Part shown: piece after piece, positions 40,889-52,330 of the stretch | Layout: every line of letters starts with the position of its first letter | Position numbering within the stretch: the stretch's first letter is position 1 | Assembly: GCF_900110815.1 (NCBI RefSeq) | Contig: NZ_FOIT01000001.1 | Location: forward strand, 83,067-145,837 | From: Aliicoccus persicus | GTDB taxonomy: Bacteria; Bacillota; Bacilli; Staphylococcales; Salinicoccaceae | DNA length: 62,771 bases | Direction: 5' to 3' | The notes under the pieces: model-generated | Databases searched by the model: none | The model's input: only the letters and a program-made list of their open reading frames with translations | What the model was told of the DNA's origin: nothing | Position numbers and translations under genes: made by a program

Positions 40889-40919
40889 TATTAAGAATTA
40901 AATAACCGATATATGAATA

Positions 40920-41046
40920 CGTCTTTAAATACGGTCCCGTGAGGCCGTAAAGACATGAATATAAACCGTATCACTGGCACCAGTAGGACCAGTGTGTGTT
41001 TTCGGGTACTTACATACTCATGTCAATAGACATGGGTATTTTTTTA
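40920..41046 (+). promoter_or_regulatory. PyrR-dependent transcription attenuator
   Basis: A PyrR-binding hairpin lies at 40921-40954: GTCTTT/AAAGAC and ACGG/CCGT stems around a loop containing GTCCCGTGAGGCC, like the conserved PyrR loop. An Rho-independent terminator at 41014-41046 has the stem ATACTCATGTC/GACATGGGTAT followed by seven T residues. By family knowledge, UMP-bound PyrR stabilises the anti-antiterminator and so promotes termination. This is the only such element in the operon, because the downstream gene junctions overlap or are too short. Confidence 0.9.
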
Positions 41047-41067
41047 TCGGCAAAATAGGAGGCACAC

Positions 41068-41601
41068 ATGAAAAAACGCACGATTTTAGACGAAGCACAG
41101 ATTGGTCGAACGCTGACACGAATCTCTCATGAAATACTTGAGCGTAACAAGGGCAGTAAAGATTTGGTGTTGCTCGGTGTAAAAACACGAGGTGAGTATT
41201 TAGCACGTCGCTTAAAGGAAAAAATCGAATCGATTGATAATTCTACGGTGCAGATGGGTACGATAGACATTACCAATTACCGAGACGATAAAGAACCAAC
41301 GCACGCAGAAGCAGATAACGCACTAGACGTCACAGCCTCACTCGTCAATCAACATGTTGTCATCGTCGATGATGTACTCTACACAGGGCGTACAATTCGC
41401 GCAGCTTTGGATGCTATTTTATCGCGTACGAGACCGGATAAAATTTCACTTGCAGTATTGATTGATCGCGGTCATCGGGAGTTACCGATTCGCGCGGATT
41501 ACATCGGGAAAAACATTCCAACATCTAAATCAGAAAAAGTTGTCGTACACATGCAAGAAATAGATCAAGAAGATATTGTATATATAAGTGAGGGTGAGTG
41601 A
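41068..41601 (+). CDS. pyrR: Bifunctional PyrR: pyr attenuation protein and uracil phosphoribosyltransferase
   Basis: A 177-residue phosphoribosyltransferase-fold protein that binds the pyr leader RNA when UMP is present. The PRPP motif [20 protein letters not shown] is near residue 95. The surrounding [16 protein letters not shown] and [15 protein letters not shown] match PyrR. The ATG has AGGAGGCACAC upstream. It is the first gene of the operon it regulates, directly after the attenuator terminator. The stop overlaps the region of the uraA ribosome site. Confidence 0.96.
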
Positions 41602-41603
41602 GT

Positions 41604-43794
<2,191 letters not shown>

Positions 43795-43795
43795 T

Positions 43796-45064
43796 ATGAG
43801 ACGTGTCATTAAAAATGGTTTTGTGTTAGAAAACAACGAACAGGTCCAAAAAGATATTGCAGTTGAAGATGGTAAGATCGTTGAAATTAGCGATATGATT
43901 GATAATTACGATGAAGTCATCGATGCAAAAGGCATGCTGGTTACACCAGGATTTGTCGATGTCCATGTACATTTACGTGAGCCTGGCGGCGAACATAAAG
44001 AGACGATTGAGACGGGTACAAGAGCAGCGGCGCGCGGTGGATTTACTGCAGTGATGCCAATGCCAAATACACGTCCAGTGCCGGATAATGCTGAGACTCT
44101 AACAAATATTTTAGACCGCATTAAAGAGACTGCACACGTTAAAGTTTTGCCATATGCTTCGATTACGACGCGCCAACTCGGTAAAGAATTAACGGACTTT
44201 AAAGCACTAAAAGAAGCTGGAGCATTTGCATTTACAGATGATGGTGTTGGTGTACAAAGTGCAGACATGATGTATCAAGCGATGAAACAAGCAGCTGCAC
44301 TTGATATGGCAGTTGTTGCACACACAGAAGAAAACACACTCATTCATGGCGGGGCAATCCATGAAGGGAAGACAAGTGAAACGCTTGGTATTCCTGGCAT
44401 CCCGTCAGTTTGTGAATCGACACAAATTGCGCGCGATGTGCTGTTAGCAGAAGCAGCAAATTGTCATTATCACGTATGTCACGTCAGCACGAAAGAAAGC
44501 GTGCGTGTAATCCGTGATGCGAAACGCGCGGGTATCCGTGTGACAGCGGAAGTGACGCCACACCACCTTGTACTTGATGAAAATGATATTACATCAGCAG
44601 ATACAAACTTTAAGATGAATCCACCATTACGTGGTAGCGATGACCGTGAAGCATTGATCGAAGGCCTACTTGACGGTACGATTGACTTTATTGCGACGGA
44701 TCATGCACCACATGCAGAAGACGAGAAAAATGTGGAAATTACTTCAGCACCGTTCGGTATCGTCGGTAGTGAAAATGCATTCCAATTGTTATATACGAAG
44801 CTAGTGAAGACAGGCGTGTTCACACTACAACAACTTGTCGACTGGTTGACAGTAAAACCATCTGAGACATTTAACTTACCGATGGGTGAGCTAAAAGTAG
44901 ATCGAGATGCTGACATTACACTGATTGACTTAGATAAAAAATATACATTAGATAAGACAGAATTTTTATCGAAATCACAAAATACACCGTTTGATGGTGA
45001 AGCATTAATTTCTGATATTTATATGACACTTGTCAATGGCAACGTTGTATATAAGGGGGCATAA
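43796..45064 (+). CDS. pyrC: Dihydroorotase PyrC
   Basis: A 422-residue zinc amidohydrolase that cyclises carbamoyl aspartate to dihydroorotate. The metal site [14 protein letters not shown] is near residue 59, and [10 protein letters not shown] near 302. [16 protein letters not shown] carries further ligands. It is a complete class I enzyme, longer than the E. coli type. The ATG follows AGGGAGAATA, 1 bp after pyrB, and carA follows after 2 bp. Confidence 0.95.
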
Positions 45065-45066
45065 GC

Positions 45067-46152
45067 GTGTTAAAGGATAAGCGATATTTAGTACTAGAAG
45101 ACGGTACAGTTTACGAAGGTTACCAGTTTGGTGGAAAAGCAGATCGTGCGGGTGAACTCGTATTTAACACATCGATGTTCGGTTTCCAAGAGATGATTAC
45201 AGACTCTGCGTATGCGAATCAAATCGTAACGTTTAGCTATCCACTCGTTGGCAATACTGGATTCAACAGTGAAGACTCTGAAACGATGAAACCAACAATC
45301 GCTGGAATCGTCGTGCGTGAAGCGGCATTATTACCATCGAACTTCCGTACGAATGAAACGTTGCATGACTATTTAGAACGTCATAACATCCCTGGTATTT
45401 CAGGCATTGATACGCGCAGCATCGTTAGAAAAATTCGCGATGGTGGTACGTTAAGAGCGGTGCTGAGTGACTCGGATGATGTGGATGCTGTCATTGAAAC
45501 GCTTAAATCAACGGATGAAACTGTACATTCAGTGCGTGATGTATCGACAAGCAGTCCTTACATTTCAACCGGTGTCGGTAGTCGTGTCGTACTCATCGAT
45601 CTCGGTAAGCAAGAAAGTCTCGTTAGAAGTTTAAACAGTGCCGGTTGTGAAGTGACGGTCGTACCACACGATACACCGACCTATGATATTTTACGCATGA
45701 AGCCTGATGGTGTCATTATATCAAGCGGTCCGGGTTCACCGGAAGATATTCCGTCAATTGTCGATAACGTACGTACGATTGCGGAACAGGTACCAGTATT
45801 CGGTGTTGGTCTCGGTCATCAAGCGATTGCTTTAGCATTTGGCGCTAAGATCGAAGCATTGCCATTTGGACACCGTGGTTCAAATATACCTGTACGTAAC
45901 ATTGAGAGAAAAACTGTAGAAATCACATCACAAAATCATGGTTTTGCTGTCAGTCGTGAATCATTGGAACAGACGGACTTAGTGATTACACACGAAGCAA
46001 TCAATGACGACTCAGTCGAAGGTATTCGTCATAAATCATTGCCGATCATGAGCGTTCAGTACTATCCTGGTGCAATTGATGGACCAGATGATTCAAGCTA
46101 TATTTTAGAAGAATTTATAAACCGTATGAATAAGGAGAATAACCATGCCTAA
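45067..46152 (+). CDS. carA: Carbamoyl phosphate synthase small subunit with a lost glutaminase triad
   Basis: A 361-residue CarA homologue. The N-terminal interface domain is normal ([40 protein letters not shown]). The class I glutamine amidotransferase domain is aberrant: the canonical GICLGHQ reads GVGLGHQ (Cys to Gly248), and the canonical QYHPEA reads QYYPGA (His to Tyr333, Glu to Gly335). The oxyanion region reads SSGPGSPED in place of SNGPGNP. The frame is intact and tightly coupled to carB (8-bp overlap), so it is not a pseudogene by decay. It likely serves as a structural partner while CarB uses free ammonia. The GTG start has AAGGGGG upstream. Confidence 0.93.
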
Positions 46153-49100
46153 ACGAACGGATATTAAATCAATATTAGTAATCGGTAGTGGACCAATCAT
46201 CATCGGTCAAGCAGCAGAGTTTGATTATGCAGGAACACAGGCGTGTTTGTCACTCCGTGAGGAAGGCTACCGTGTCATCTTAGTAAACTCAAACCCTGCG
46301 ACAATTATGACAGATAAAGAAATCGCAGACGTTGTGTACATCGAACCGTTAACACCGGATTTCATCGCACGTATTATCCGTAAGGAACAACCGGATGCAC
46401 TGTTGCCAACGCTCGGTGGACAAGTCGGTTTAAACATGGCGGTTGAGCTCGATCGTCTCGGCGTACTTGAAGAAAATAATGTGGAGCTGCTTGGTACGAA
46501 GCTTGATTCAATCAAACAAGCTGAAGACCGCGATTTATTTAGAAACTTAATGAATGACATGAATATTCCCGTGCCTGAGTCAGATATTATTACGACGCTT
46601 GAAGGTGCTTACCGATTCAAGGAGCAGGTCGGCTATCCGTTCATCGTGCGACCAGCATATACGATGGGTGGTACCGGCGGTGGTATTTGTTATAACGATG
46701 ATGACTTAAAAGAAATCGTTACAAATGGACTCAAATATTCACCGGTGAACCAGTGTTTACTTGAAAAATCTATCGCTGGATATAAAGAAATTGAATACGA
46801 AGTGATGCGTGACTCAAACGATACAGCAATCGTCGTTTGTAATATGGAAAACATCGATCCAGTCGGTATCCATACAGGAGATTCAAACGTTGTGGCACCG
46901 ACGCAAACATTGACGTTAAAAGAAACGAACATGCTGCGTGACGTGTCATTATCTGTTGTCCGTGCACTTGGCATTGAAGGTGGCTGTAACGTGCAGCTAG
47001 CACTCGATCCACACTCGTTTAATTATTACATCATCGAAGTGAACCCGCGTGTCTCACGTTCGTCAGCGCTCGCTTCTAAAGCTACAGGTTTCCCGATTGC
47101 GAAACTTGCAGCGAAAATTGCTGTTGGTATGAACTTAGATGAAATGAAAAATCCTGTAACAGGTACGAGCTACGCAAGTTTTGAACCGTCTATCGACTAT
47201 GTCGTGACGAAAGTTGCACGCTTCCCATTTGATAAGTTTGAAAAAGGTGAACGTAAACTTGGCACACAGATGAAGGCGACAGGTGAAGTCATGGCAATCG
47301 GTCGTACGTTTGAAGAATCGATTCTAAAAGCTATTCGTTCATTAGAATACGGTGTGCACCATTTAGGATTACCGAATGGCGATGACTTTACTTTAGAGCA
47401 AATAGAGAAGAAGATAAAAGAACAGAGTGATGAACGCTTATTCTATATCGGTGAAGCGTTGCGCCGCGGTATTTCTGTCGATGAGATTCATACGTGGACT
47501 GAAATTGACTATTTCTTTATCAATAAGTTTAAGCATATCATCGATATCGAGCATGAATTAAAAGAAAATGTCGATTCAATCGACCATTTAAAATGGGCGA
47601 AAACGTATGGTTTTAGCGACCGTGTTATCGGTCACCGATGGGGTAAAGATACGGATGAAATTTATCAGATGAGAAAAGATCATGGTATATTCCCAGTGTA
47701 TAAAATGGTCGACACGTGTGCGGCTGAGTTTTCTTCAGATACACCGTATTTCTACGGGACTTATGAAAAAGAAAACGAAGCTGTTGCGAGTGATCGAGAA
47801 AAGATTTTAGTACTCGGTTCTGGTCCGATTCGTATCGGTCAAGGTGTCGAGTTTGATTACGCGACAGTGCATGCAGTGTTTGCGATTCAAGAAGCAGGAT
47901 ACGAAGCAATCGTCGTCAACAACAACCCAGAGACTGTGTCGACAGACTTTACGATTTCTGACAAGTTATACTTTGAACCACTCACTGAAGAAGATGTCAT
48001 GAACATTATCGAGAACGAAAAACCGATGGGTGTTGTCGTTCAGTTCGGTGGACAAACGGCAATCAATTTAGCAGAGAAGTTAGAGCGACACGGCGTGAAA
48101 ATTTTAGGTACGACGTTAGACGATCTAGACCGTGCAGAAGATAGAAAGCGTTTTGAAGCATTGCTGAGAGAAATCGATGTGCCACAACCACTTGGTAAAA
48201 CAGCAACAAACGCTGCTGAAGCTGTAGAAAATGCTGAAGCGATTGGTTATCCAGTACTCGTGCGTCCGAGCTATGTACTCGGTGGTCGTGCGATGGAAAT
48301 CGTTCATAGTAAAGCAGAGTTAGAAAACTACATGACACAAGCGGTTAAAGCATCGCCTGAACATCCGGTACTAATCGACCGCTATTTAATGGGTAAAGAG
48401 ATTGAAATCGATGCGATCTGTGATGGAGAGAACGTCATTATTCCAGGTATTATGGAACACATCGAACGCGCTGGTGTACACTCGGGTGACTCGATGGCTG
48501 TTTATCCGCCGATTACATTGACAGAAAGTGAAATTGAAACACTTGTGGCTTATACAGAAAAATTAGCACTCGGACTAAACACAGTTGGACTCATCAATAT
48601 CCAGTATGTGTTATCAGACGGTGAAGTCTATGTACTTGAAGTGAACCCACGCTCAAGTCGTACTGTACCATTCTTAAGTAAAATTACAGACATTCCGATG
48701 GCAAGACTTGCGATGAAAGGTATTTTAGGACAGAAATTTACGGATTTAGATTATGAGTTAGGCTTACAAAAAGTTCAAGACGGTCACTATGTTAAAGCAC
48801 CGGTGTTCAGCTTTAATAAGTTGAAAAACGTTGACATCACACTCGGTCCTGAAATGAAATCAACTGGGGAAGTTATGGGTAAAGATTCATCACTTAACAA
48901 GGCATTGTATAAAGCACTTGTCGCAAGTGGTCTTGAAGTGAAAGATAACGGAACAGCACTCTTCACAGTTGCAGACAAAGATAAAAAAGAAGCAACGGAA
49001 CTCGCCCAGCGCTTGAGCAAAATCGGATATAGAATTATGGCAACGTCAGGTACGGCTGATGTTTTATCAGAAGCGGGCATCTCAGTCGTTAAAGTAGAAA

Positions 49101-49321
49101 AAATTGATGCGGTAGAAAATAGCCTACTTGATATGATTAACAACGGTAAGGTACAAATTGTCATCAACACGATGACGAAAGGTAAGACGGTAGAACGTGA
49201 CGGATTTAGAATTAGACGTGAATCTGTGTACAATGGTATTCCTTGTTTAACATCCCTTGATACTGCGCGCACATTGATTGAAGTCATTGAGAGTATGACA
49301 TTTAGCATGGACAGAATGTAG
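46145..49321 (+). CDS. carB: Carbamoyl phosphate synthase large subunit
   Basis: A 1058-residue duplicated synthetase that makes carbamoyl phosphate from bicarbonate, ammonia and two ATP. The two ATP-grasp halves begin [20 protein letters not shown] and [20 protein letters not shown] (near residue 553). Glycine-rich loops [13 protein letters not shown] and [14 protein letters not shown], and metal sites in [14 protein letters not shown] and [14 protein letters not shown], are intact. The C-terminal MGS-like allosteric domain ([19 protein letters not shown]) is present. Unlike its partner CarA it shows no sign of degeneration. Confidence 0.97.
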
Positions 49322-49329
49322 GTGATTGT

Positions 49330-50984
<1,655 letters not shown>

Positions 50985-51002: not shown

Positions 51003-51692
51003 ATGAACCGTCCAATAATCGCTTTAGATTTCGAAAACCGTGAGCAAGTGGAACAATTTCTTAATCGCTTTGATGAGTCACTATTTGTAAAAGTTGGCAT
51101 GGAGTTGTTCTATGCTGAAGGACCACAAATTGTCCAAGAAATTCATGCACGTGGCCACGACATATTTTTAGATTTAAAATTGTATGATATACCAAATACC
51201 GTCGGCCGAGCGATGTCCGTGCTTGGTGGATTGAATGTCGCGATGACGAATGTCCATGCCCATGGCGGCGTCGCAATGATGAAGCGCGCTGCTGAATCAT
51301 TCAAAGATAAAAATCCAGATGGCAAGTTGATTGCAGTGACGCAGCTGACGTCGATGAACGAATTGAATGTGAGTGATGAACAACAATCAAAGTTGTCTTT
51401 GGATGATAGCGTCGAACATTTGGCACGACTCACTTTATCAGCAGGACTGGATGGTGTTGTATCATCACCTCTAGAATCGAAACGCATCCATGAAACGTGC
51501 GGAGATGACTTTTTAACAGTCACACCAGGCATCCGCTTAAGTGAAGATTCGGTGGATGACCAAGTGCGCGTTGTTACACCAGACGAATCACGCGCACTGG
51601 GCACAGATTACATCGTCGTCGGTCGTTCGATTACGACGAGTGAAGACCCGGTTGGTAAATATAAAGTTGTGAAATCGTTGTGGCAAGGTTAA
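51003..51692 (+). CDS. pyrF: Orotidine 5'-phosphate decarboxylase PyrF
   Basis: A 229-residue barrel enzyme that forms UMP from OMP. The catalytic D-K-D motif is in IFLDLKLYDIPNTVG near residue 60, ALDFENREQ is at the N-terminus, and the phosphate loop is IVVGRSITTSEDP near the C-terminus. The ATG has AAGGAGTGCTTGA upstream, 18 bp after pyrD. Confidence 0.96.
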   Translation: MNRPIIALDFENREQVEQFLNRFDESLFVKVGMELFYAEGPQIVQEIHARGHDIFLDLKLYDIPNTVGRAMSVLGGLNVAMTNVHAHGGVAMMKRAAESFKDKNPDGKLIAVTQLTSMNELNVSDEQQSKLSLDDSVEHLARLTLSAGLDGVVSSPLESKRIHETCGDDFLTVTPGIRLSEDSVDDQVRVVTPDESRALGTDYIVVGRSITTSEDPVGKYKVVKSLWQG

Positions 51693-51724: not shown

Positions 51725-52330
51725 ATGAGAGAAGAAAGTATAGCGGGTATTTTACTCGACATCAATGCAGTGATGATTCGTCCGAATGATAAGTTTACGT
51801 GGGCGAGTGGCATACAGTCACCGATCTATTGTGACAACCGTAAAATCATTGGTGACGTGGCAGCACGTCGAGCCGTTTCGAAGCGCTTCGTTGAGTTGAT
51901 CGAAGGTAAAAATGTGGATGTGATTGCAGGTACTTCTACTGCGGGTATTCCACATGCGGCTTTTATTGCTGAAGAAATGTCACTGCCGATGAGCTATGTG
52001 CGTGGTAGTAAGAAAGCGCACGGAACAGGTGCACAAATAGAAGGTGCCGACGTTAAAGGAAAACGCGTCGTGTTGATTGAAGATTTAGTGTCAACAGGCG
52101 GATCGAGCTTAGAAGCAGTGAGCGCGTTAAAAGAAGCCGGTGCTGAAGTTGTCAACGTGACTGCGATATTTACGTATGAGTTGGACCGTGCGCGAGAAAA
52201 CTTTGAAGCAAGTGGGGTAGAGTTGCTGACGTTGAGTAACGTTTCAACTTTGTTAAGTGTGAGCGTCGATCGCGGTGACTTATCTGAAGCAGATGTAGAA
52301 GAAGTACGTGAGTTTTTGAGTAATTTGTAG
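51725..52330 (+). CDS. pyrE: Orotate phosphoribosyltransferase PyrE
   Basis: A 201-residue enzyme that makes OMP from orotate and PRPP. The PRPP-binding motif is VVLIEDLVSTGGSSLEA near residue 118, and FTWASGIQSPIYCDNRK is the N-terminal orotate region. It is the last gene of the ten-gene pyr operon and is followed by a strong terminator and then the third repeat field. The ATG has GGAGGTAACGT upstream. Confidence 0.96.
   Translation: MREESIAGILLDINAVMIRPNDKFTWASGIQSPIYCDNRKIIGDVAARRAVSKRFVELIEGKNVDVIAGTSTAGIPHAAFIAEEMSLPMSYVRGSKKAHGTGAQIEGADVKGKRVVLIEDLVSTGGSSLEAVSALKEAGAEVVNVTAIFTYELDRARENFEASGVELLTLSNVSTLLSVSVDRGDLSEADVEEVREFLSNL

Follow-up and report, generated by a model that had tools for sequence, protein, structure and literature searches.

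How does a bacterium obtain carbamoyl phosphate when the small subunit of its only visible carbamoyl phosphate synthetase (CPS) lacks the residues that cleave glutamine? This question is raised by the pyrimidine locus of Aliicoccus persicus, contained in a 62,771-nucleotide stretch of DNA that is analysed here and referred to as the window. In E. coli the nitrogen used physiologically by CPS comes from glutamine, whose hydrolysis requires both Cys-269 and His-353, according to a review (PMC6245113). The data presented below suggest that the window probably encodes an ammonia-dependent bacterial CPS, in which CarA would be kept as a structural or regulatory subunit, and that the change is recurrent in the class.

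The pyrimidine operon and its CarA

The operon is complete, in the order pyrR-permease-pyrB-pyrC-carA-carB-pyrK-pyrD-pyrF-pyrE, with carA adjoining carB. Its features, and the codons discussed below, are as follows.

40918..41047, + strand, PyrR-binding leader RNA RF00515 (53.6 bits; the Rfam gathering score, 54, is narrowly missed)
41068..41601, + strand, pyrR (family match)
41598..42926, + strand, NCS2-family permease, uracil-permease-like (passes the cut-off for NCS2 but not the one for the uracil permease model)
42829..43794, + strand, pyrB, aspartate carbamoyltransferase (ORF as listed; family match from residue 32)
43796..45064, + strand, pyrC, dihydroorotase (family match)
45067..46152, + strand, carA, CPS small subunit with a predicted dead glutaminase site (ORF, family and domain matches)
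45208..45210, + strand, Ala48 codon; Ser in 67/67 Cys-bearing CarA rows (E. coli Ser47; alignment)
45610..45612, + strand, Gln182 codon; Lys in 67/67 Cys-bearing CarA rows (E. coli Lys202; alignment)
45724..45726, + strand, Ser220 codon; Asn in 67/67 Cys-bearing rows (SNGPG loop; E. coli Asn240; alignment)
45808..45810, + strand, Gly248 codon GGT, replacing the nucleophile Cys (E. coli Cys269; alignment)
46063..46065, + strand, Tyr333 codon TAT, replacing the triad His (E. coli His353; alignment)
46069..46071, + strand, Gly335 codon GGT, replacing the triad Glu (E. coli Glu355; alignment)
46145..49321, + strand, carB, large (synthetase) subunit, overlapping the end of carA (ORF, domains, conservation)
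49330..50079, + strand, pyrK, dihydroorotate dehydrogenase electron transfer subunit (family match)
50076..50984, + strand, pyrD, dihydroorotate dehydrogenase (family match)
51003..51692, + strand, pyrF, OMP decarboxylase (family match)
51725..52330, + strand, pyrE, orotate phosphoribosyltransferase (family match below the curated cut-off)

The start of pyrB is probably further in than listed, because the family match begins only at residue 32.

The carA reading frame has a GTG start and encodes 361 amino acids. The protein contains both PF00988 and PF00117, and scores 419 bits against TIGR01368 (curated cut-off 307) and 428 bits against NF009475 (curated cut-off 221); since both scores exceed the curated family cut-offs, it is a true CarA. 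The triad regions, however, read VFGVGLGHQ and SVQYYPGAI, so that the Cys-His-Glu triad by which a glutamine-hydrolysing class I amidotransferase is recognized is Gly-Tyr-Gly in the window. The initial annotation, which had assigned glycine, tyrosine and glycine to these positions, is exact at each codon, and alignment to E. coli structures agrees: Gly248 lies opposite residue 269 of the small subunit, which is Cys in PDB entry 1bxr and Ser in 1c30/1c3o (the E. coli C269S protein), while Tyr333 and Gly335 lie opposite His353 and Glu355. Among relatives the triad is conserved. Cys-His-Glu was present in all 29 of the CarA loci aligned first; in a set of 41 rows it was found in 39, with Cys-His-Asp in one (a divergent carAB of genome G005) and Gly-Tyr-Gly in the window, and Cys and His were retained in 40/40 aligned relatives from the family and order. 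Loss of the glutaminase triad from the window CarA is thus confirmed at the level of sequence. A class I glutaminase is expected to be inactive once its nucleophile, general base and the partner of that base are missing. As all three are gone, together with part of the glutamine site, the window CarA should be unable to hydrolyse glutamine.

It could be argued that these codons reflect a sequencing or assembly error, as the comparison set holds only one genome of the window's genus and the relatives searched include no further one. The reading frame is clean, however, with many other changes besides the three triad codons, and the same type of change occurs in genomes of other families (see below). 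An error is therefore scarcely credible, and the earlier view that the loss is real holds.

The suggestion that carA remains intact next to carB is likewise supported. The gene is full-length and overlaps carB at 46145-46152, the two being separate reading frames and not a single fused chain, and CarB is conserved. CarB contains two stretches each of PF02786 and PF25596, followed by PF02787 and PF02142, and so has the plan of a CPS synthetase, with two ATP-grasp halves and oligomerisation and allosteric domains. Its identity is 80-83% to CarB of the 17 relatives from the family in which the CarA of the pyr operon carries Cys-His-Glu, and 62% to the divergent G005 copy. Among 21 Cys-bearing systems 444 CarB columns show no variation, and the window keeps 438 of them. 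In a leave-one-out comparison the window broke 13/605 CarB columns, compared with 0-9 for the other rows and 89 for the G005 copy. Only columns 272, 323 and 740 were altered in at least three lineages with a Cys-less CarA, and they formed no clear tunnel pattern.

Changes beyond the triad

The triad residues are not the only conserved positions of CarA to have changed. Across the class, 78 columns were at least 97% invariant in 67 Cys-bearing CarA rows, and the window CarA keeps 70 of these. The eight that differ are the equivalents of E. coli Ser47, Lys202, Asn240, Ile268, Cys269, His353, Glu355 and Leu366; when the Cys-bearing rows were left out in turn, the median number of near-invariant columns changed was 0 and the maximum 6. 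The changes fall in four of nine glutamine-site columns and in four of 69 others (Fisher p 0.005), a value that is descriptive, the triad positions having prompted the question, and that depends on a nine-column set based on the E. coli structure. In E. coli, Ser47, Gln273 and Asn311 are glutamine contacts; the Ser47 equivalent is lost in the window and those of Gln273 and Asn311 are kept. The residues retained in the window CarA include Gln252, Asn290, Gly292 and the glycines of the GPG loop. Against the family and order alone, the leave-one-out comparison showed that the window breaks 17/120 near-invariant CarA columns, compared with 0-2 for 39 of the other 40 rows and 14 for the divergent G005 copy.

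Cys-less CarA proteins elsewhere in the class

To the question of whether the loss is clade-wide among related genera the answer is divided: among the family genomes read the window stands alone, and yet the Cys has been lost in other lineages of the class. In total 398 Bacilli genomes were scanned for the motif FG[IVM]xxGHQ with any non-Cys nucleophile codon, after which CarA was read directly. The motif matched in 34 + 2 genomes in two scans, and the match was CarA in 15 + 1 of them; at the remaining matches there was no Pyr protein at the locus, or the match was placed away from the CarA of that genome (second motif matches in G382 and G400 were left out of the reading). The Cys-less CarA proteins found in this way belong to the window, to nine genomes of another genus, g84, and to G091, G255, G247, G335, G064 and G161. 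When CarA was read directly in a selection of 32 genomes, including 12 comparison genomes with no motif match, G193 and G087 were added, giving at least 18/398 genomes from eight genera and six families. This is a lower bound because two of the 12 motif-negative comparison genomes, G193 and G087, proved to have a pyr copy that lacks the Cys. In 16 of the 18 genomes the searches gave no Cys-bearing CarA, and in 13 the Cys-less protein is the single full CarA. Three genomes of family f33 (G255, G247 and G335) have two CarA proteins each, a pyr copy and a second copy, both of which are Cys-less, while G193 and G087 combine a Cys-less pyr copy with a Cys-bearing second copy. The Cys-less pyr copies adjoin carB and mostly lie between pyrC and carB; in G091 and two genomes of family f9 no adjoining pyrC was seen. 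One g84 genome, G328 (99% complete), had no CarA match, compared with a Cys-less CarA in the other nine.

The Cys-less proteins differ in how far the glutamine site has changed. Cys is replaced by Gly in all except G161 (Ser) and G193 (Asn), and His by Tyr in the window and three g84 genomes, by Gln in G161 and by Asp in G193. Asp stands for Glu in f9 and in the second copies of G335 and G247, and the G255 second copy has a gap at that site. Seven of nine g84 genomes, G091, genus g127 and f9 no longer have the Asn311 equivalent, and the second copies of G255 and G247 have also lost the Ser47, Lys202 and Asn240 equivalents. These sequences can be placed in stages. Considering the triad and Asn311, Cys alone is lost in the pyr copies of G255 and G247; Cys and Asn311 in seven of nine g84 genomes and G091; Cys and His in three g84 genomes, G161 and G193; and all three triad residues, including an acidic third residue, only in the window among the rows read.

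The pattern of these losses bears on the possibility that the dead CarA serves as a glutamine sensor or allosteric domain, which binds glutamine or another ligand uncut and tunes CarB. Retention in the window of Gln252, Asn290, Gly292 and the GPG loop glycines is in keeping with such a role. The Ser47 and Asn240 equivalents, however, are lost in the window and the Asn311 equivalent in the other lineages named above, indicating that the glutamine pocket is not conserved among Cys-less CarA proteins, and we consider a sensor improbable.

The CarA tree requires about nine changes in Cys state, at least seven of them forced by supported branches, a count that comes from a quick method with long branches and does not distinguish loss from gain. 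The tree covers 63 of the 88 rows in the alignment, including 15 of the 40 from the family and order of the window, and 11 site columns were masked. A single origin of the Cys loss does not fit this tree.

Selection on the glutaminase domain

It might be proposed that carA is simply decaying, becoming a pseudogene that remains open only through the translational coupling of carB. Several observations point in this direction. The carA and carB genes overlap, 17 near-invariant columns are broken in the family-level comparison, G328 of g84 is without any CarA match, and the glutaminase domain is the fastest evolving part of the system. With the CarB topology fixed, the end branch of the window had a length of 0.23 in CarB, 0.66 in the N domain of CarA and 1.05 in the glutaminase domain; relative to CarB, with ratios scaled by tree totals, the N domain evolved 1.7x and the glutaminase domain about 3.3x faster. 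The window ratio is the highest among end branches longer than 0.06 in CarB, but the ratio alone is no proof, as some short branches, mostly in genus g2, show similar or higher values (up to 5.2).

Against decay, the 361 codons are open, the length is preserved and 70/78 of the class-wide near-invariant residues are kept. By its rate the glutaminase domain of the window is relaxed, not free. More telling are the g84 genomes, in which seven close pairs, drawn from six of the nine genomes, gave dN/dS values of 0.029-0.092 for the Cys-less glutaminase domain by a simple Nei-Gojobori count, pairs with saturated dS being excluded. In a control 11 Cys-bearing pairs, with four g84 pairs recomputed alongside, gave 0.024-0.127 for the same domain. 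Such low values go beyond what coupling alone would give and imply that a domain not expected to hydrolyse glutamine is conserved as a protein, beyond the mere upkeep of an open frame. The Cys-less domain of g84 is therefore a maintained pseudo-glutaminase under strong purifying selection. It should be emphasized that this selection after the loss is seen in g84, a genus other than that of the window, and that constraint is weaker in g105, where dN/dS is 0.225 (pyr copy) and 0.137 (second copy) for the glutaminase domain and 0.174 and 0.334, respectively, for the N domain. These values, relaxed but below 1, count against the ammonia-dependent reading with a retained CarA. Taking both sides together, decay of carA appears unlikely.

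Other sources of carbamoyl phosphate and ammonia

The window genome (2.06 Mb in eight contigs, 99.5% complete) contains one carA and one carB. A second, intact carA elsewhere, which would have made this copy redundant, was searched for in the genome and not found. PyrB was the one carbamoyltransferase match; neither ornithine carbamoyltransferase nor carbamate kinase was found in the genome. With no second carB, carbamate kinase or ornithine carbamoyltransferase found, PyrB is left without any other obvious source of carbamoyl phosphate, and since PyrB requires this substrate and the pyr operon is complete, CarB is its sole visible source.

It could also be argued that ammonia is passed to CarB, via the dead CarA, by another glutaminase or amidotransferase, an alternative raised in the initial annotation. 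The genome does contain six other class I amidotransferase loci, four with intact GICxG and HPE motifs (the motif script reported none for the two weakest matches). By size and motif, however, the class I loci look like parts of GuaA, PyrG and TrpG/PabA-type enzymes; a GlsA-type glutaminase was not found in any of the 34 genomes searched, that of the window included, and the pyr operon carries no extra gene. The search thus yielded no candidate, and a second glutaminase feeding CarB seems very unlikely. As regards free ammonia, neither an ammonium transporter nor a urease alpha subunit was found in the window genome, which counts against the use of ammonia, although the transporter is absent too from the six g2 genomes searched.

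A CPS that may depend on ammonia

On balance, ammonia dependence is the most economical reading, although the use of ammonia is deduced from sequence. CarA would act as a pseudo-glutaminase, and CarB, an intact synthetase as judged by its sequence, would form carbamoyl phosphate with bicarbonate, two ATP and free NH3 as its substrates, the NH3 reaching the carboxyphosphate site from solution. CarA may still be required as a physical part of the complex, whether for stability, for conformation or for closing the old ammonia tunnel, a role suggested by the purifying selection seen in Cys-less relatives. The likely cause, which is speculative, would be a habitat or physiology rich in free NH3, such as high pH. 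With the charge of Pyr proteins as a proxy for habitat, CarB of the Cys-less g84, G091 and G161 is slightly more acidic than in sister rows; that of f33 is not more acidic, and f9 has no sister row.

Precedents exist for several parts of this proposal, and CarA, CarB and the logic of a pseudo-glutaminase, as in CPS I, are already known. In E. coli the large subunit can form carbamoyl phosphate with ammonia as the nitrogen donor, and CPS can use ammonia at very high concentration, but the review considers that reaction likely to be physiologically irrelevant, which counts against an ammonia-dependent enzyme in the window (PMC6245113). Closest in logic is vertebrate CPS I, which has Ser for Cys, an inactive glutaminase-like domain and a requirement for ammonia only (PMC4655335 and PMC6022934). 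As in human CPS1 (PDB 5dot/5dou), the window retains a glutaminase domain from which the catalytic Cys is absent and which is probably inactive. In contrast with the window, CPS I is one fused chain that requires N-acetylglutamate and serves the urea cycle; in the window a pyrimidine operon encodes two bacterial subunits, Gly stands for Cys, and the changes extend to His, Glu and other residues of the glutamine site. With respect to the route of ammonia, human CPS I may take it up by an alternative tunnel, and in E. coli external ammonia can still be used by variants whose tunnel has been blocked or perforated (PMC4655335).

The window proteins share their family and subunit plan with E. coli CarAB; unlike the wild-type E. 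coli enzyme, which uses glutamine, they show a loss that is natural. An E. coli C269G mutant reportedly exists, and changing Cys269 is said to make the E. coli enzyme ammonia-only. In the soda-lake fish Alcolapia, which lives under very alkaline conditions, CPS III has independently moved from glutamine towards ammonia; unlike the window CarA, however, that enzyme keeps the triad, has lost a glutamine-binding residue and serves an animal urea cycle (PMC7657897). Similarly, the anabolic carbamate kinase of Pyrococcus uses free ammonia to form carbamoyl phosphate and involves no glutaminase (PMC6022934), but this kinase is unrelated to CarAB.

No report of a natural, recurrent Cys-less bacterial CarA was recognised in the literature searched, which held few subscription papers. 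The 16 genomes without a Cys-bearing CarA argue against extending to them the review's statement on the glutamine donor, and repeated loss in related bacteria points to free ammonia as the nitrogen source for carbamoyl phosphate in some bacteria. The Cys-less genomes are natural replicates, at different stages, of the loss behind vertebrate CPS I, and they raise the question of why purifying selection acts on a whole glutaminase domain predicted to be unable to cut glutamine. More broadly, we think it likely that ammonia-dependent CPS with a pseudo-glutaminase arose many times independently in Bacilli, driven by free ammonia, with both paralogues Cys-less in some genomes and carAB missing in related genera, as a recurrent counterpart of the step from CPS III to CPS I.

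Relatives without carAB

In the window's family, genera g3, g5 and g6 (except G005) were without carA and carB matches, as was G021 of g2, perhaps because this genome is only 80% complete. The pyr operons of G010, G002, G004, G009 and G020 (loci L086, L087, L088, L092 and L094, respectively) are otherwise intact, with pyrC directly before pyrK; that of G002 additionally lacks the permease gene. The family thus spans a glutamine CPS, a glutaminase-dead CPS and no CPS. Carbamate kinase was found above the curated cut-off in all nine carAB-less members examined (G002, G004, G007, G009, G010, G012, G014, G017 and G020), and this full enzyme, encoded elsewhere in the genome, is a possible source of carbamoyl phosphate. 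These relatives may obtain the compound from carbamate kinase or from a catabolic transcarbamylase. In G010 (L089:2598-7331) the carbamate kinase lies two ORFs after an FdrA-type gene, a type that belongs to oxamate/allantoin breakdown, and in G002 (L090:6927-9123) it lies beside a CynX-like transporter that scores below its curated cut-off. A review regards thermophilic archaea as possibly the only organisms with an anabolic carbamate kinase (PMC6022934), and for Thermococcus kodakarensis another paper names an arginine pathway instead (PMC13260591).

The idea that the window represents a halfway step towards the carAB-less g3, g5 and g6 was considered and rejected. A tree of pyrBCKDFE separates them, grouping the five sampled carAB-less genomes together (support 98) and with g2 (96), while the window branches off early on its own (support only 77), so that loss of the triad and loss of carAB look independent. 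In the CarB tree the window lies beside g4. The exception in g6, G005, has a divergent carAB (locus L064; 45% and 62% identical, Cys-His-Asp) with no other pyr gene in the stretch, and this pair is perhaps a horizontally acquired replacement.
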